Origin: Cavia porcellus
Lineage: Eukaryota > Chordata > Mammalia > Rodentia > Caviidae
Reading direction: 5' to 3'
NCBI RefSeq assembly: GCF_034190915.1
Contig: NW_026947496.1
Coordinates: forward strand, 57,608,501-57,672,500
Length of the DNA stretch: 64,000 nt
Within the stretch, counting starts at the first letter, position 1. Each line of letters opens with the position of its first letter. Shown piece after piece: positions 3,270-29,767 of the stretch. The notes below the pieces were generated by a model. That model did not search any database. It was not told where the DNA came from and saw nothing but the letters and a program-made list of their open reading frames with translations. The position numbers and the translations under genes were made by a program.

Positions 3270-3465
3270 TTTTCCATTTTTTTAAAAGTGAGATAATTGT
3301 ACATTCTCATGTAGTTTGAAGAAATAATACAGGCTTTTTTTTTTGGACTCCTCATTTCATTTCATAAAGCTAAGAGTCTAATGTCACAAACAAGGTCCTG
3401 GAATGCATCAGTTTACTGATCTTATTCAGATTTTCCAGTTTTAAACATTTATGTGAGTTGCTATG

Positions 3466-3477
3466 AATAAATTTCTC
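3466..3477. repeat. left target-site duplication of the truncated HAL1-like copy
   Basis: The 12-mer aataaatttctc recurs exactly at 4411-4422, flanking the element. Its first bases could partly overlap the A-rich tail, so the secure core is aaatttctc. Confidence 0.75.
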
Positions 3478-4410
3478 TTAACACAAATGATGCTTAAATT
3501 GTTCGGTTCTGACCTGCGTTGTTTTGTTACAATGTCCATTTTATCTCAATTTCCCCCCCTTTTTAAAATTAATCTATTTTCTCTCATTTTTTTAATTAAG
3601 GGAATACTAAATTAAAAATAGCGGGACATATTATAGTAACTTTTTTGTTTTCCTATTAACCTGATTTGAAGCCCAGTATTGCTCTCCCCATCTTGTTCTG
3701 TCTGATTATTCTATATTCTATTTTGTTTGATAGTATCAAGTTTGAGGGTATAGGCAACCACTTTGAAGGCAATAAGATATACTATGATGCCCATTATGGA
3801 CTGACTACTATCTTTTTTTGAGGTTCTATAAGGTCTTCGGTGTAGGTTTTACTGGTCTTGTTCTGTACTGTTTTGATCAATTCAATAGACATAGGCAATG
3901 ATGATATAGGCAACTCAATTTAAAAATAGCAAGAGGCACAATGGTAACCACTTTTGATCACCTGGTATTCTATTTTTGTATCATGTACTATGCCCACCCT
4001 TCTGTTTGACTGTTTTGTTTAGTCACATTTGGTTTTATTCTCTTCAAAAAAAGTAATAAGAACTGTGGGAGTAATAAAACCTGAAAAATGTAATTGTTAT
4101 TGTAAAAAAGAGAGGAAAGGAAGGTGGACTAAGGGATATAACCGCAGGTATGTTTGAGTGTGTAGGATGGAAAACCATATTACTGAGCTTTTTTTGATCA
4201 TTGAACGGAACTGTCTCCAATTTCACTGTATGAATGTCCACTTTATATGCTTTAATTTTATAATTTGTACAACTGTTTCTAGGAAGACAATATGTAACCT
4301 ATTAACTAGTGATTTCTCACTGTATATTTTTTTCTTGAAATTCTGTATTACTTGTACCTTTTACTGCTTTGTTTTTTTGTCCTTTCTTTTTTCTCTTTAA
4401 ATAAAAAAAT
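3478..4410 (+). mobile_element. 5'-truncated HAL1-like element (3' UTR only)
   Basis: From about 3491 to 4410 this aligns collinearly with 6950-7857, the 3' UTR of the neighbouring full copy. Shared segments include a gacctgc...tttgtt block, ttaattaaggga, tcaccatcttgtt-type and gtaataagaactgtgggag blocks, and a terminal taaataaa. It has no ORF1 and no ORF2. The ends are set by the 12-bp direct repeat. This is typical of reverse transcription that stopped early after target-primed insertion. It sits in the 3' UTR of the ancient antisense L1. Confidence 0.85.
4400..4405 (+). terminator. polyadenylation signal AATAAA of the truncated copy
   Basis: AATAAA lies right before the A-rich end of the element, at the same relative place as in the full copy (7842-7847). 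Confidence 0.7.
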
Positions 4411-4422
4411 AATAAATTTCTC
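4411..4422. repeat. right target-site duplication of the truncated HAL1-like copy
   Basis: This is an exact match to 3466-3477 (aataaatttctc). Confidence 0.75.
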
Positions 4423-4484: not shown

Positions 4485-4496
4485 AATCCTGCCTTA
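4485..4496. repeat. left target-site duplication of the full HAL1-like element
   Basis: The 12-mer aatcctgcctta is repeated exactly at 7858-7869. Removing the element and one copy restores a readable stretch of the ancient L1 3' UTR. Confidence 0.9.
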
Positions 4497-5380
4497 GGAG
4501 TTTGCTGTTTGCAGCTGCCATGAGAGGCAGCCCAGCCGTGCCCGCCTGCCTGGGAGCCAACTGAGTGTGGACTGAAACCTCCAAAAACTGCTATTGACTT
4601 CCGGGAGAACATGGCAGACAAATAACAGCAGTCACAGAGGCTCTCTGAGATTACCAGCTTAGAATCCAGGAGTGATGCTGTGTGAGGAGTCCTAAGCGAG
4701 GGGAGATGTACCCTGCCGACCCAGGAATGAACTAAGCTGAGAGACACCAACTGGAAATGCAATCCTGATGCTATAACAGGAACAGATAAAATCTCAGCAC
4801 AGAAGCTGGATCCCGCACCATTGGAAGCTGCAATTTGAATTTCCTGCTGCCGCTGCTGCGTTCCAATCGGCATGGCAGGGAGAGAGACACGTGAAAGTTC
4901 TGAGAACGGGAATCGGCAAACCAAACGGCGTTGAGAGCAAGACTAGCAGGGAGCTCTGTATCGATCTGCAGTGAGTGAGAGAAGTGGGGACCCTTCCATA
5001 GACTAGGAGGCTCTAACAGAGGACATTCTGGGACAGGCAGACTAGCCAGAACAGGGCCCTGCAGTAACTTTAGTTGCATATTCCCCTCTCAAGTGGGATT
5101 GGTGGGGAGTGCTTGGCCTGGTGACGCCACGGACTAAGATCCAGTAGGCTAGCCCAAATCAGGTCCCTGTCCTGGCAGTGCACCCTAGCAGTGAAGCCTT
5201 CGGTAGATTGACCTGGAGGGACCGGCCCAGGTCTGTGTTTCCCTAGTACACTGCAGTGGGCGAGAACACCTAGCTGGCAGATTCAAACAAACTGTAACAG
5301 ACAAAAGAGAAAAAAAAAAAAAAACCCAAAAAACAAAACAAAAAAAACAAACAAACTTTGGGCCTCCTACATACGTTTGA
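4497..5380 (+). promoter_or_regulatory. 5' UTR / presumed internal promoter of the HAL1-like element
   Basis: This roughly 880-bp leader between the target-site duplication and the ORF1 start is clearly richer in G+C than its surroundings. It ends in an A-rich run (about 5310-5355) before the first ATG. L1-type elements carry their pol II promoter in this position, so promoter function is inferred from place and composition. It does not resemble the 5' UTR of the antisense L1 at 18851-19279. Confidence 0.6.
4515..4590 (+). other. MaLR-LTR-like segment at the extreme 5' end of the HAL1-like element
   Basis: The segment reads gcagctgccatgagag, then tgggagccaac, then tggactgaaacctcc. That motif order is characteristic of the 3' part of MaLR-type LTRs. 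Bases 4567-4590 match 29676-29699, inside a MaLR-like LTR in this window, at 22 of 24 positions. It begins within about 20 bp of the target-site duplication and stops before the usual polyadenylation region. It could be a captured LTR promoter fragment or chance similarity. Confidence 0.45.
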
Positions 5381-6457
5381 ATGGAAGGAACAAAAAGTAT
5401 GGGAAGAGGGAGCAACAGTAAAGGGTCCTCAGTCCCCAATCCTGAGAACACTGATCCAGGAAAGGTAAATGCAAAAGAGAATGAAGACAGAAAACATGAA
5501 ATATTGGACACGGCACCAATAGACAAAGCGGTATCTCCGGAGCCTCATAGATGAGTTCAAAAATGAAGTATTTAATGAAATAAAGCAAGAAATATGTAGA
5601 ATAGTTAGGGAAATGCTAAGCACCACCCAAGAAAAACAGATGGTGGAATGGAAGAACAGAAAAAAAGGGGAGAATTGTTTGATGGAGAAAATAGAGAAAA
5701 CATAGAATATGTGAAGCAGGTTCAAAGAGATTACCAGGAAACTAAAAACTCTATTGAAAGCTGGCATAACAGCTTGAAAGAAACTAAGGATAGATTATCA
5801 GAACTGGAGGACAGATTTGTAAGTTGGGAGCATGAAATGAAAAACTTCTTAAAAATAACAAGAAAACAAGCAGCAATAATACAAAGGCTAGAAGATGATA
5901 AGAGGATCTATAACTTAAGAATTAAGAACATAAAAGAAGAAGTAGGGACACAAACAAATGAATTACAAAAGCTATTCACAGAAATAATCCAGGAGAATTT
6001 CCCTAATTTAGCAAAAGGTAAAGATACTCAGATATATGAGGCATATAGGTCCCCAGCCAATTACAACCCAAACAGAGCTATACCCAGGCATATAATAATC
6101 AAAATTCCAGAAATCCAATATAAGAACAGAATATTAAAAGCCGTCAGAGACAAGAAACAGATTACTTACAAGGGAACACCCATCAGAATTACAGCAGACT
6201 TCTCGGCACAAACCATCAAACCACGAAGAGCATAGGGGGAAATAATTCAAGCTTTGAAAGATAATAACCTCCAGTCAAGATTGATGTATCCTGCACAACT
6301 GTTGCTAGAAATTGATGGAAAAACAAGGTGCTTCCAGGATAAAGAGGAACTAGGGGAATTTGCAACCACCAATTCAACTCTATAGAGATTACTGCAGGAT
6401 ATTCCAAAAATGAAAAATACCAAGATTCCAGAAACAGTGGCAGAGAGACTACAATGA
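5381..6457 (+). pseudogene. L1-type ORF1 (ORF1p-like RNA-binding protein), broken
   Basis: ORF1p is a trimeric nucleic-acid chaperone that coats L1-type RNA in the cytoplasm. The start at 5381 gives a Ser/Asn-rich N-terminus (MEGTKSMGRGSNSKG). That frame ends at TGA 5552-5554. The reading continues one frame over from about 5535 to 5690 with coiled-coil sequence, then returns to the first frame from 5648 on. The coiled coil includes ESWHNSLKETKDRLSELEDR. The RRM-like domain contains RIKNIKEE and FPNLAKGKD, and the C-terminal domain contains RHIIIKIPE and PIRITADFSAQT. In-frame TAGs at 6233-6235 and 6383-6385 precede the natural end at TGA 6455-6457. The total of about 359 codons fits the normal ORF1p size. 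Two compensating frameshifts and two stops make it inactive as read. Confidence 0.88.
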
Positions 6458-6599
6458 ATGGAGCAGAAAGCAAAATGAAGAAGACAACCTGACAACTAAT
6501 GACAGAAAAAGAGCTCAATAGAAATGAGGCAGAGAAGGCTGGATGGTAGGAACAGCCATTTTGGAGAAAACAAGACAAACAATAATAACAAGACAAACA

Positions 6600-7500
6600 A
6601 ACAATAATAGGTAGTGCTGATTTAATATCCTCTTGTTTTGAAGTACCATCAAACTTTTGTTCTTCTGTCTCCATCGGTTTTAACCTGTTGTATCTTATTG
6701 GATTTTATTACATGTGATAATATAAACAAAAACTTTTATAGACAAGGAGATTATACAGAAACCATTGTTCATTTTCTGTTAGTTGATTCTAAATACCCTG
6801 TAATACTGTCATTCTCTTGAACGGTTTTACATTATCTTGATATGTTTGATGCTACAGTATACGAAGTTATACCCAAAGATTTTAAGGAAAGAGACACTAT
6901 GGTAACTACTTTTATGTCGAGATTATCTTGTGGTGAATCACTATTTTGCTTAAATGGCTATGTTTTGACCTGCACTGCTTTGTTGTTATGCCCTCTTTTT
7001 TATCTCAATCTCCTTTTTATTATCTACTTTTTCATTTTTATCCTTTTAATTAAGGGAAAAATAAATTAAAAAATAGCAGGATATATTATAGTAACCCATA
7101 TTGATTTCCTATTAACTTGGTTTGAAACCCTCTATTGCTCTCACCATCTTGTTTTGACTGATTTTCCTCTATTCTGTTCTGCTTGATAGTACCAAGTTCG
7201 AAAGTATAGGCAAAACTGTGAAGACAATCAGATTCATTATGATACCCATTCTGATTGACTATTATCTTCTTTTGAAGTCCTGTAATGTCTCCAATGTTTT
7301 GGTTTTATTGGTCTTGTTCTTTACCCTTTTTTTCAATTTTATTATAACTGATGATACAGGCAATTCTTTTTAAGATAGCAAGAGACATTATGGTAACCAT
7401 TGTTGATCACTGTATATTTTGTTTTTACATTATGTATTATGTCCATCCTTTTGATTTGACTGACTCTGTCCTGTTATGTCACATTTGGTTTTACTTTCTT
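6600..7500 (+). repeat. diverged tandem array (about 145-190 bp units) in the HAL1-like 3' UTR
   Basis: A recurring core of the type attat-ggtaacc-att-ttgat appears near 6606, 6751, 6897, 7086, 7237 and 7388. The spacings are about 145, 146, 189, 151 and 151 bp. Sequence after each core is also related, with T-rich stretches and a gattgactattatctt-like piece. The same core occurs in the 3' UTR of the antisense L1 at 14418-15060. Unit borders are read by eye. Confidence 0.7.
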
Positions 7501-7857
7501 CAAAAAAAAAAAAAAAAAGTAATAAGAACTGTGGGAGAAATAAAACCCAAAATGTGTAATTGTCATTGTACAAAAGAAAGGAAAAGAAAGTGCTCTAAAG
7601 GTTTTAACTGCATATATATTTAAGTGTGTAATATAGATAAACCATATTACTGAGTTTTGTTGGATCATTGAACAAAACTGTTTGCAGTCTCACTGTTTGA
7701 AAGTCCCCTCTATCTGCTTTAATTTTGTAACTTGAACAACTATTTCTAAGATGACAATATGTAATTAACTGGTGATTTCCTAATGTTTATTTTTTCTGAA
7801 ATTCTGTATAATTTGTACCCTTTTTCTGGTTTTTCTCCTTAAATAAAATTAAAAAAA
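7501..7857 (+). other. 3' extension of the HAL1-like element beyond an internal A-tract
   Basis: An A-run at 7502-7518 stands where the related L1 3' UTR ends in its poly(A). About 340 bp of non-array sequence follow, from gtaataagaactgtgggag onward, with their own AATAAA. The truncated copy has the same tail but a shorter A-run of about 7 at 4046-4052. The tail therefore belongs to the family. It looks like read-through sequence that became fixed. Confidence 0.6.
7842..7847 (+). terminator. polyadenylation signal AATAAA of the full HAL1-like element
   Basis: AATAAA lies just before the terminal A-run and the right target-site duplication. Confidence 0.8.
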
Positions 7858-7869
7858 AATCCTGCCTTA
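7858..7869. repeat. right target-site duplication of the full HAL1-like element
   Basis: This is an exact match to 4485-4496 (aatcctgcctta), directly after the A-tail. Confidence 0.9.
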
Positions 7870-14417: not shown

Positions 14418-15060
14418 CTTTTCTTTTTTAAAATTTTATTTTAAAGAGAATAAAACAAAAGAGGACAGAACAAAGCAGATCAAAACAGAACAATGTAAGC
14501 AACACAGAATTTCACAAGACAACCAGATATTAACAGTAGCTACCATCTCTTTCTTTGAAATACTTGAGCATACCTTCATATACAATAGTATCAACATAAC
14601 AAAATAGTATAAAACATTCATGAGAATGAAAGTATTAGAGGGCATTCAGGACTAACTAACAGAAAGTGAACAATGGCTACTATAATATCTCATTTTCCAT
14701 AAAAACTTGTTTATAACACATATTAAAACCCAATAAGACACAACATGATAGAACCAATGAAAATAGAAGAACAAAAGCATGATAGGACTTCAAAGCAAGA
14801 TGATATTAAATCAGCAATGGCTGCCATAATGTCTTTTTTTTCTTCAAAATATCTGTTCATACGATCACATATAATAAGATCAAACAAAACAGAATAAAAC
14901 CAGTCCAACTAGTGAGTGAAAATATTATAAGGCTTCAAAGCAACATAGTGTGGAATCATGATTACCATAAGATGTTATGTACTCTTACCATTTCTTACAC
15001 TAGGGAGACTATATGGCATTTATACATGTGAGTTTGATTTATTTCACTTATGAGTATGGT
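14418..15060 (-). repeat. L1 3' UTR with a tandem array of about 140-bp units
   Basis: On the plus strand, related cores with the pattern ggctaccataat-gtct lie near 14540, 14679, 14822 and 14961, a spacing of about 139-143 bp. Read on the minus strand, the core gacattatggcagccattg matches HAL1-like bases 7384-7402 at 17 of 19 positions. The minus strand of 14630-14690 also aligns with 6764-6822 (attgttcactttctgttagt-like). This links the two elements. Confidence 0.75.
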
Positions 15061-15100
15061 CTCAAGTTGCATCTATTTATTTATAAATATCTCAATATGA

Positions 15101-17717
15101 TCATTTTTTTATAACTGAGTAGTACTCCATTGTAATAAAATGCCACAACTTTTTGATCCATTCTTCAGTTGATGGGCACTTAGGTTGTTTCCAAGATCTG
15201 GCTATTACAAATTGTGCAGCTATAAACATGGGTGCACATATATTACTGTGGTATGATGTTTTCAGTTTTACTGGTAATACGCCTAGAAATGGAATAGCTG
15301 GGTTAAATGGGACTTCAAATCCCACCTTTTTGAGGAATGTGCAGACTGACCTCTACCAGTCTACACTCCCACAAACACTGCAGGAGACTTTCTTTTTACC
15401 TACAGCCTTTCCAGAATTTGTAATTGGTAGTTTTCTTGACCCTGGCCATTCTTTCTGGAGTGAGACGGAATCTCTATGTGGTTTAATTTGCATTTCTCTA
15501 ATTACTAATGATGATGAACATTTTTTGATGTATTTATTTGCTATTTTTATTTCTTCATCTGAGAACTATGGATTTATCTCAAATGCCCATTTTTGGATTG
15601 GGTCTTTGAAATTTGAGGGTCTGATTTTTAAAAATTTTTATATGATCTGGACAGGAGTCCTTTGTCTGAGGGACAGTTCACTAAGATTTTTTTCCAGTTT
15701 GTAGGTTTTCTTTTCACTATGCTGGAGATTTCTTTTTACATGCAGAAACTCCTTAGTAAGACGTGCTTCCAGTTATTGATTCTGGGAAGTATTTCCCGTG
15801 CAGTTTTATTCTTGTTCATGAATTATCTACCTACCCCTATGTCTTCAAGATTTTTGCCTAATTTGTCTTTCAACAGATTTAGTGTTTCTTTTTAATATTT
15901 AGATCTTTGATCCAGTCAGATTTTAGTTTAGTACTTGGGATAGGCATGGGTCTAGTTTTAGTTTTTGTGCATGAAGAGCCAGTTTTTCAAGCACAATTTA
16001 TTTAAGAGATTGTCATTCTTCCTGTGAACATGTTTGGCTCCTTTATCAAAGATAAGGTGGTTGAGTGTTTGTAGTTGGGATTGTATCTTCCAGTCTATTC
16101 CATTGCTCTTAAAATCTATTTTTCTTCCAGTACCATGTTGATTTTATTACAGTAGCATTGTAGTATAACTTCAAGTCAGAGATTGTGATGCCTCCTGCCT
16201 TGGCTTTGATGCTTAGTATTTCCTTTGCTATTCTAAGTCTCTTCTGGTTCCAGATGAATTTTAGGAGTGATTTCTCTAGATCTCTAAGGTATGTTGATGA
16301 TATTTTTATTGGGATTGCTTTGAATTTGTGTAACAGTTTTGGGGGAATGGCCGTTTTTACAATATTTATGCTTCCTATCCATGAAGAAGGGGTATTTTTC
16401 CATTTTCTGAGATACTTTTCAATTTTTTTTTTATAATTTTGACTGTATAGATCTTTTATTTCTTTTGTGAGATCAATTCCTAAATATTTAAATTTTTGGA
16501 TGCTATTGTGAAGGGTGTGGCTTCTGTTATTTCTCTCAGTGATTTTGTTGTTAGTGCATAGGAATGTTATTGATTTTTGAGTATTGACTTTGTATCCACC
16601 TACATTGTTGAATTTTTTTATTATATCTAGGAGTCTTTAAATGGAGTTTTGGAGTCTTCGATGTAGAATATCATGTCATCTGCAAATAATGATAATTTAA
16701 CTTCCTCTTTTTCTATTTTTACTCTTTTATTTCTCTCTTTTGTCTAATTGCTCTGGCTAGTATTTCCAGTACTATGTTGAATAGGAGCAGTGATAAGGAA
16801 CATCCATGTCTTGTGCCTGATTTAAGGTAAAGGCTTTCAGTAAATGAAAGGTATACCATTTAAGGTAATGGCATTGGCCATTTAATATGATGCTGTCTGT
16901 TGTTTGTTCATAGATGGCTTTTATCATATTGAGGTACAAACCACCTATTCCAATTCACTGTGAGGTTCTTATCATGAATGAGTTTTGGACCCTATCAAAA
17001 GTTTTTTTCTGCATATAAATGATCATGTGATTCTTACTTTTGGCTCTATTGATATGGTGGATTACATTTATTGATTTACACATGTTGGACCATCTCTGCA
17101 TTCCTGGATGAATCCCACGTGGTCATGGTGTATAATCTTCTTGATGATTTGCTGTATCCTGTTTGCCAATATTTTATTGAGGATTTGTGCATCTATGTCC
17201 ATTAAGGAGATTGACCTGTAGTCATCATTTTTAGTTGGATGTTTCCCAGCTTTTGGTACTAGAGTAATATTTGCTTCCAGGAATGACTTAGGAAGAATTG
17301 CTTACCTTTTGATTTCATTGAAGAGTTTGAGGAGTGTCAGCATTAAGTCTTGTTTGTATTTCTTTAGAATTCTGCAGTGAATCCGTCTGGGCCTGGGGTA
17401 AGGATTTAATTACATTTTCAATTTCACTAATAGAGATTGGTCTATTCAGAAGTTTTACCTCTTGTTGACCTAGCTTTGGTATTTCATATGTTTCTAGGAA
17501 TCTGTCCATTTCTTCTGTGTTATCAAATCTAAGAGAGTAGAGGTTTTTGCAATAGGTGTTGATGATCTTCTGTATTTTGACAGAGTCTTTAGTGATTTTC
17601 ATTCCTTATGGCATGACTTTAAGCTGTTTCATTCCTTTGTTTCTTGATCCATTCTGCCAGTCTGGTTCTTTTAATTGGTGCATTGGGACCATTTACATTA
17701 ATGGTTATAAGTGTCAT
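15101..17717 (-). pseudogene. L1 ORF2 (endonuclease/reverse transcriptase), decayed and deleted
   Basis: ORF2p nicks target DNA and reverse-transcribes the element RNA on site. The minus-strand start at 17717 reads MTLITINVNGPNAPIKRTRL, the first endonuclease strand. About 30 codons on, it jumps into the linker before the RT (NTEEMDRFLETYEIPKL). The RT then shows ISISEIENVIKSLP, an SPGPDGFTAEF-like block near 17370, a DHVGFIPGMQ-like block near 17090, and the catalytic FADD at 16675-16686. The Cys-rich/C-terminal region ends with FIAAQFVIARSWKQPKCPST and MEYYSVIKK. Several stops and frameshifts interrupt it. Most endonuclease catalytic residues are lost with the deletion. Confidence 0.87.
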
Positions 17718-17814
17718 GTATTGGTTTATTGTTGATGTCTTATTCTTCTGCTGTTGTATCTTTACCTTTACATTCTGTTAAATTTATGCCTTGCTTAGTG
17801 ATTTTTTCATATGT

Positions 17815-18850
17815 TTATCTAGAGTGTCTTTCAGTATTCTTTGTAGAATTGGTTTCATAATCATGAAGTTCTTCAGCTGTTTTCATCATGGAAGTATCTT
17901 ATTTCTCCACCATTTTGAAGGACAGTTTTGCAGGGTACATCAGTCTTGGTTGCAATTCATTTTCTTTTTGGATCTGAAATACTTCAATCCCCATTCTTCT
18001 TGACTTTATTGTTTGTATTGAGAAGTCTGCTGTGATTCTGATTGGCCTTCCTTTATAGGTGATCTGTCTTTTCTCTCTAACACTTTTTAATATTCTGTTT
18101 TTATGTTTCTGGGATGGTGATTATTATATGTCTGAGTGTAGTTTCATTTTGTTTATGGCTATTTGGAGTTTTGTAGGCTTCACTAATCCATATGTCAGTT
18201 TCCATTCCATGTTTGGGAAATTTTCATGTATTACTTCTGTAAATAGCCTCTTGATATCATTTGTGTTGTCCCCTTCTTTTTCTTTTACCCCTATTAATCT
18301 TACACTGTTTTTCTTTGCATCATCTTGCATCTGTTGAATTGTTATTTCCTGATTTCTTGTTATTTTTAAAAGAACTTTCCTTTCCTGTTCACTAGCTGCA
18401 ATCTTGTTTTCAAGGTCTGGAATTCTGTCTTCACTTTTTTGTGGTGATTTTTGCAACTTTTAATGGAATTTTTGAATTCCTGTATATCTCTTTGAATGTG
18501 CTTCATGTTTTCGTTTTTTTTTCCTATACTGCTCATTCAGGGATTCTATTTTTTTTGCATTTTTCCTCAAACTTTTTAGCTATGCTTTCTTTAGATGTGT
18601 TTACTTTTTATTTCCTTACTTTTGTCATTTCCTCTTTTACCTGGGTGATTATTTCTAATTTGCGTAGCTTTGTAGCAACCCAGAGTTGCTTCTTTATTTC
18701 AGTTGATATCATTTCAGGTCTATGGCTTATATTTTCTTCTATGTATATGGCTTTTAGACTTTCTTGGGACAGGCTGGAGGTTTGAGATTGGTCTTTCATC
18801 TTGTCATTTTCCTGTATTTCTGTCTTTCAAGTGATGTTCCAGAACTTCCC
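17815..18850 (-). pseudogene. L1 ORF1, decayed
   Basis: From the minus strand, an N-terminal Ser-rich part near 18830 is followed by coiled coil (18799-18608, with KKQLWVATKLRKLEIITQVK). Next comes the trimerisation/RRM region (18456-18124, with DRIPDLENKIAASEQERKVL and FTEVIHENFPN). The C-terminal domain near 18060-17900 contains an ITYKG-PIRITADFS block. Frameshifts split it into at least three frames. The C-terminal block closely parallels that of the HAL1-like ORF1 (6160-6300), supporting a common lineage. Confidence 0.83.
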
Positions 18851-29468: not shown

Positions 29469-29767
29469 CACCCTGAGAGAGTACAAGAAGCAAGCACAAT
29501 ATGTGTGATTGCTACAGCTACCCTGGGAGGAGGAGTGGTAGCCTGCCTACAATATAAGAGAAGAAAAGATTCTTGTACACTGAGCCCTTTTACTCTGATT
29601 GCTTTTGCTGTCTTTTGCCACCTTGAGATGTTCCCCAAGTATCTTGGAGCCCCACTGCCTTGGACCCAATTGATTATGGACTGAAACCTCCACAAACTGT
29701 GAGCTAAATAAACTTTTTCTTTCTTAATTTTGGGTGTTGAGTATTTTTTCCCAGCATTGAGAGAAAA
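29469..29767 (+). mobile_element. MaLR-like LTR, sense (3' part)
   Basis: The stretch contains tatggactgaaacctccac, aactgtgagctaaataaac (AATAAA), then a gttgagtattttttccc block and a gtaacaaagaca end. It matches the layout of 28200-28325. The 59-bp duplication forms its left edge, so its 5' part is unclear. Confidence 0.6.

Follow-up and report, generated by a model that had tools for sequence, protein, structure and literature searches.

A MaLR-like LTR segment, probably a trapped first exon, at the 5' end of a guinea-pig HAL1 retrotransposon and its recurrence in other copies

Half-L1 (HAL1) retrotransposons of the guinea pig are already known: a table in PMC3183009 names the families HAL1-1H_Cpo, HAL1-3D_Cpo, HAL1-1G_Cpo and HAL1-1E_Cpo beside L1-1C_Cpo and L1-1D_Cpo, and a passage of PMC3627910, citing Bao and Jurka 2010, gives the coding capacity of guinea-pig HAL1 ORF1p as retained for about 29 to 44 Myr. 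Here, we describe a HAL1 copy located at positions 4497-7857 of a 64,000-nucleotide stretch of the Cavia porcellus contig NW_026947496.1 (the window, at its full length). This copy is dead and belongs to a HAL1 family whose only encoded protein is ORF1p, the product of open reading frame 1 (ORF1). The insertion is genuine: it is directly flanked on both sides by the exact 12-mer AATCCTGCCTTA, and it has an L1-type ORF1 and an L1-derived 3' untranslated region (UTR), with no ORF2. A sequence-only reading of the window had reported exact target-site duplications (TSDs) at both ends, as well as a 3' UTR with AATAAA followed by an A-tail, and both were recovered, with AATAAA at 7060, 7539 and 7842. 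It made no statement on whether the family had been described in this host; guinea-pig HAL1 families are named in the table of PMC3183009 and discussed in PMC3627910. The window copy shares with the families of that table the host, the ORF1-only structure, the presence in many copies and the company of guinea-pig L1 families; in contrast to them, it has a foreign 5' exon. The new part is the putative trapped exon derived from a long terminal repeat (LTR) and its recurrence, while the HAL1 family itself is known.

In the literature found, exon trapping is otherwise described for SVA and L1, and an earlier report is possible. SVA_F1 is interpreted as having trapped MAST2 exon 1 by splicing in one event, and has at least 84 copies (PMC12593883), the chimpanzee pt_SVA_D6 carries STK40 exon 1 and has 94 copies (PMC12593883, PMC6139936), and an approximately threefold enrichment of endogenous retrovirus (ERV) sequence, with 14 loci, is given for SVA 5' transductions (PMC12593883). 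The window copy would resemble SVA_F1 and pt_SVA_D6 as a non-autonomous, L1-dependent element with a first exon trapped by splicing and carried to new sites. In contrast to them, the HAL1 chimeras number seven, have different spacers and are seemingly not amplified; their exon comes from one LTR family, and HAL1 encodes ORF1p. The L1/mRNA chimeras of PMC13174262 contain first exons of genes, ending at splice donors and joined just upstream of near full-length L1. The exon end at a splice donor, upstream of a long interspersed nuclear element (LINE), is common to both; however, those chimeras consist of autonomous L1 and genic exons, and neither HAL1 nor the guinea pig appears in the main text of that paper. 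Finally, the MaLR LTRs of mouse oocytes are described as providing a start site and a splice donor (PMC13408016, PMC9733328), so that an LTR would be a portable first exon in both cases, but the partner there is a host gene or a long non-coding RNA, whereas here it would be a re-inserted retrotransposon RNA. The mechanism proposed below fits what these sources report of mouse MaLR LTR transcripts and of first-exon trapping by SVA and L1.

A search of the guinea-pig genome with the element gave best matches of about 90% identity (best 40 of 24,411 candidates scored), and the 39 best-scoring copies other than that of the window were fetched. The alignment starts within window positions 4583-4603 in 32 of them; in the other seven, it starts at query positions 70 (L019) and 151 (L029) and, in five cases, at position 426 or later. 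The filter for both ends was passed by 33 of the 39 copies, a few of them 5'-truncated. A string of at least nine nucleotides is common to both flanks in 22 of these 33, compared with 17 of 1,056 mismatched pairings, and for this reason position 4596, where the motif GACTTCYGGGAGAACATGG and the other HAL1 copies begin, is taken as the true start of the family. At first sight, L018 and L019 reach beyond this start in the 5' direction, but their TSDs are adjacent to HAL1. The TSD of the window copy sits 99 bp upstream of 4596. The idea of a complete element with its own 5' UTR is correct as far as the HAL1 5' UTR is concerned, which is present from 4596, and incorrect for the first 99 bp. These are foreign: 93 bp come from a MaLR-like LTR, and the other 6 bp belong neither to the LTR nor to HAL1. 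In a search that scored 40 of 1,212 candidates, the 93-bp part (4497-4589) had 39 further listed LTR matches, of 94-97% identity, and all of them end at 4587-4591. The subsequent spacer GCTATT (4590-4595) agrees with the continuation of the LTR in two of six bases and is not HAL1 sequence.

Six LTRs (L060-L065) were fetched for comparison. All of them begin with TGTCATGG; the LTR of L064, the one measured, is 342 bp long and has tg...ca ends, and six LTR pairs lying 1.82-1.86 kb apart were noted among the 40 scored rows. The similarity between the window and the LTR stops at ACT^GTAAGAAATAAA, that is, at a 5' splice site (ACT^GTAAGA), which is intact in five of the six fetched LTRs; the sixth continues with ATAAGAAATAAA (ATAAG) where the others have the donor. 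The splice site is a good one and adjoins the poly(A) signal of the LTR. The window copy has the appearance of a trapped exon: its match to the whole LTR ends at position 264-265, the donor lies at 264|265, and the spacer is not LTR.

The arrangement is not limited to the window. A genome-wide search for the end of the LTR exon followed by 0-30 nt and the HAL1 start gave five places in the sense orientation, including that of the window, and none in the genome for the antisense control, in which the orientation of the LTR end was reversed. A DNA search with 4497-4690 revealed at least five rows, besides that of the window, covering both parts, one of which is also a pattern match. Nine LTR/HAL1 loci were examined, the window included; rows starting at query positions 86-98 (e.g., C27:1074364, C6:76342206 and C4:106421878) lie outside these nine. 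Seven of the nine loci consist of a TSD, an LTR part without U3, a short spacer or none, HAL1, an A-tail and a TSD. The LTR part lies inside the TSDs in all seven chimeras, where the flanks share strings of 10-14 nt; mismatched pairings of their flanks share 9 nt in 2 of 42 cases and never more. The projected starts within the LTR are 172, 176, 158, 178, 158, 139 and 201, five of the seven falling within 158-178. The spacers differ in every chimera, which speaks for separate events and not for one amplified chimera. No second copy of the window junction was found by the exact pattern search or among the matches listed in the two DNA searches, and none of the seven chimeras seems to have been amplified. 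By eye, the flanks of one chimera (L096 and L100; G000 C26:26072200) resemble the HAL1 5' UTR, and this chimera seems to have been inserted inside another HAL1.

That the TSDs enclose the LTR part, that U3 is missing, that the window junction lies at the donor and that the arrangement recurs with different spacers can be read directly from the alignments. The best reading of these features is that retrotransposition of HAL1 RNAs initiated in LTRs took place more than once, and that some of these RNAs, at least, had been spliced. As for the window copy, it is likely that an LTR-initiated HAL1 RNA, spliced at the LTR donor, gave rise to it by retrotransposition. We infer that transcription began in the LTR: the start site of the parent RNA would have lain not at the promoter of HAL1 itself but in a MaLR-like LTR situated upstream of the source element. 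Splicing would then have joined the 93-nt first exon, at the LTR donor, to an acceptor that preceded the source HAL1 by a few bases, and target-primed reverse transcription of the mature chimeric RNA would have produced the insertion, with the order TSD, LTR exon, spacer, HAL1, A-tail, TSD. Each of the six other copies may derive, in a separate event, from an RNA that likewise began in an LTR of this kind, with its LTR part ending at the donor or close to it. Splicing in cis is more likely than splicing in trans, and not all seven chimeras need be spliced. By analogy with rodent MaLR LTRs, the setting would have been the germ line or the early embryo.

A number of observations weigh against this explanation, including those on spacers and direct insertions given in the next paragraph. 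The search for a source with a splice acceptor took in the four copies with an exact CTATT flank, 60 places with one mismatch being outside it, and none of the four has AG or G before CTATT. At the locus L103 (G000 C22:50155800-50156320; C22:50.156 Mb), a HAL1 5' end with AG about 9 nt before it is preceded, at a distance of about 290 nt, by a sense LTR with an intact GTAAGA donor. This arrangement has the geometry expected of a source locus, and yet its flank differs from the spacer of the window copy. The firmness of the donor junction also varies between copies. With the whole LTR as a reference, the match continues weakly to 284 in L092 and to 279 in L098; with the reference cut at position 266, six of the seven chimeras end at the donor, but this cut means that L092 and L098 could not run far past it. 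The pattern demanded LTR sequence up to the donor, and therefore the copies found only by the pattern reach it by design. Moreover, the chimeras that could be found are those with spacers of up to 30 nt or those very similar to the window copy. The name MaLR-like is based on features that we take to be typical of such LTRs, on the TG...CA ends and on the pairing of the LTRs. On the same side stands the comparison of shared and singleton changes in ORF1, with N/S values of 1.71 and 3.0, respectively (Fisher p = 0.11), a non-significant contrast that hints at past selection on the protein.

The alternative that survives best is unspliced read-through, in which the source HAL1 was inserted directly in an LTR near the donor and an RNA started in the LTR ran into HAL1. 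HAL1 elements lying directly within LTRs exist: this is the case at two of the nine loci (L093 and L097), where the LTR still bears its upstream sequence. When the spacers were compared with the continuation of the LTR, with 500 shuffles for each, 18 of the 21 bases after the donor of L093, a direct insertion, agreed with the LTR, and none of the shuffles was as good. The spacers of L092 (10 of 21 bases; 25 of 500 shuffles as good) and L098 (11 of 20 bases; 59 of 500) are less clear-cut, being weakly LTR-like. In L091 and L096, just 0 and 1 nt, respectively, separate the LTR part from HAL1, which fits splicing and also a source HAL1 inserted directly in the A-run of the LTR by the donor. This A-run, just before the donor, resembles what we assume to be the target of the L1 endonuclease. 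However, the window copy, L090 and L095 carry spacers unlike the LTR continuation (258, 80 and 444 of 500 shuffles were as good, respectively), the window junction occurs at no second locus within the searches described above, and several independent insertions at almost one base of the LTR would be required. Read-through is an unlikely origin of the window copy.

Somewhat more doubtful still is template switching, in which the reverse transcriptase, having reached the 5' end of the HAL1 RNA, jumped to a separate LTR-initiated RNA. Such jumps are one of the routes to L1 chimeras proposed in PMC13174262, and the variation of the LTR-HAL1 spacers between copies agrees with them. However, repeated stopping at the donor (264|265) is not expected of a jump to an independent RNA. 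Against the whole LTR, four chimeras (the window copy, L090, L091 and L096) lose their match at 264-265 and a fifth, L095, at 262. In addition, the spacer of L092 holds a 12-mer that is repeated at the 3' end of HAL1, inside the outer TSD. This is how a TSD belonging to the source element itself would be expected to appear, and template switching leaves it unexplained. The possibility that the element is a single L1 with a deleted ORF2, to which the ORF2-bearing relative with a homologous 3' UTR in the window might point, is negligible and is refuted by the ORF1-to-3' UTR junction, which is shared by 38 of the 39 and 19 of the 20 other copies examined.

The former figure refers to the fetched copies. 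Since these were the best-scoring ones, a further 20 places were chosen without regard to the junction, out of the first 100 exact 5' ends in the list (all of them on contig C1), and the same ORF2-less junction was present in 19 of these 20. In the 20th stretch (L083), there was no match in the expected orientation; an inverted HAL1 segment occupies the place, and its own junction was not seen. The HAL1 start motif has 2,476 exact matches in the genome, while its reversed control has none. The genome-wide recurrence of the junction, which the sequence-only reading had put forward as a check, bears out its proposal of an ORF1-only L1 family as opposed to one deleted L1. Its statement that there is no trace of ORF2 stands as well, the stretch after ORF1 being similar to the L1 3' UTR alone. 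No ORF2 similarity was detected between ORF1 and the A-tail in comparisons with the L1 of the window, itself without part of the endonuclease region, and with the L1 adjoining L047. At L047, HAL1 runs into another repeat and then into L1 ORF2. This locus was considered as an autonomous parent and rejected; a single instance of its junction was seen in the 40 scored of 2,708 candidates, and hence the locus is read as a rearrangement. At L047/L048 (G000 C20:60.02 Mb), the 5' half of HAL1 is fused to another repeat and L1 ORF2. The early 3' end in many genome matches turned out to be an alignment break and not a shorter element, as all 16 copies from L020 to L035 reach query position 3338 or beyond.

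The derivation of HAL1 from L1 is indicated by the 3' UTR shared with an ORF2-bearing L1 (73.7% identity over 411 columns). HAL1 copies have A-tails and TSDs, of 12 nt in the window copy and visible as the shared flanks of the 22 ordinary copies mentioned above, and HAL1 probably used L1 ORF2p in trans for its movement. Divergence was taken from pairwise distances and a tree for the window copy and the 27 others present at full length in one alignment. The mean pairwise distance is 0.047 outside CpG-prone columns, and the terminal branch of the window copy is 0.039 long, compared with a mean of 0.031. Thirteen HAL1 5' ends on the same strand, mostly about 21.3 kb apart, were noted at G000 C1:41.14-41.42 Mb; this array is likely a tandem segmental duplication.

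The ORF1 of the window copy matches Pfam PF02994 (Transposase_22, the L1 ORF1 RRM) over 5609-6235 with a value of 7.1e-23, and the Cavia protein P0001 (359 aa) aligns with it from end to end in tblastn. It had been described as an ORF1 of normal length. The extent, 5381-6457, is indeed normal; the reading frame is broken, with in-frame stops at 6233 and 6383 in the translation and an out-of-frame stretch at about 5550-5640 that adds six more stops. An intact 359-aa ORF1 is open in 5 of the 27 full-length copies of the family. The guinea-pig protein models P0001 and P0002, named as isoforms of ZNHIT3 and JAZF1, are HAL1 ORF1 proteins, and these names look wrong. Scans of genome-contig and viral-contig collections with the ORF1 fragment revealed no relatives.

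Table 1. Features of the HAL1 insertion and of related repeats (window positions).
Feature	Position	Strand	Basis or remark
Left TSD AATCCTGCCTTA	4485-4496	+	Exact 12-mer, again at 7858-7869
LTR-derived stretch, read as first exon	4497-4589	+	LTR positions 172-264 of L064; without U3
Spacer GCTATT	4590-4595	+	Interpreted as the source HAL1's 5' flank, from splice acceptor to first base
True HAL1 5' end and 5' UTR, starting with GACTTCCGGGAGAACATGGCAGAC	4596-5380	+	Other copies start there, with TSDs adjacent
HAL1 ORF1, broken	5381-6457	+	tblastn, translation, Pfam
ORF1-to-3' UTR linker, where L1 would have ORF2	6458-6577	+	Uninterrupted in nearly all other copies examined
3' UTR, diverged units of about 145 bp	6578-7849	+	Homology with the L1 3' UTR of the window
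A-tail	7850-7857	+	Read from the sequence
Right TSD AATCCTGCCTTA	7858-7869	+	Exact 12-mer match to the left copy
Older 5'-truncated HAL1, 3' UTR only	3478-4410	+	76.6% to 6947-7832
Related L1 with ORF1, ORF2 remains and 3' UTR	14430-18800	-	ORF1 and 3' UTR matches; P0005/P0007 tblastn
Old LTR stretch, same kind as 4497-4589	29604-29699	+	Local alignment score

The second family member that had been noticed nearby was found again. This older, truncated HAL1 lies about 75 bp upstream of the main element and is flanked by the 12-mer AATAAATTTCTC at 3466-3477 and 4411-4422. In the related L1 of the window, the ORF1 match (18772-17803) is 63.5% identical to the HAL1 ORF1, and its 3' UTR at 14857-14465 (minus strand) shows 73.7% identity with HAL1 6578-6983. 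Repeated units of about 145 bp can be noted in both 3' UTRs: the L1 (14430-15000, minus strand) has four diverged units, the probe unit included, and HAL1 (6578-7857, plus strand) has five scoring higher than the best of five shuffles and two within the shuffle range. The copy L043, with a TSD of 17 nt, ends just past the inner AATAAA (window position 7060), which corresponds to the 3' end of the L1 itself; apparently, the inner poly(A) signal still worked. The alignment score of the LTR stretch at 29604-29699 is 40.2, compared with a maximum of 29.0 in 200 block shuffles. No matches were obtained with Rfam and ARAGORN in the window.

Studies of the place and timing of retrotransposon expression in the germ line usually rely on RNA from living tissue. 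An LTR first exon enclosed by TSDs would document permanently which LTR promoter drove an RNA that went on to be inserted. In the guinea pig, one LINE and one LTR family would have left several records of this sort, which makes the promoter and the cell type behind HAL1 mobilisation testable. To exon trapping, this would add a coding, ORF1-only LINE, an LTR as the donor of the exon, and recurrence instead of a single amplified event. A wider interpretation, which we put forward tentatively and hold at slightly less than even, is that guinea-pig MaLR-like LTRs repeatedly served as a portable promoter and first exon for HAL1, and that part of the mobilisation of this family may have passed through spliced, LTR-driven RNAs, probably in the female germ line or the early embryo, in which LTRs of this kind are active. 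If this is true, the seven copies would be a fossil record of the promoter that mobilised a non-autonomous LINE and perhaps also its autonomous L1 helper.

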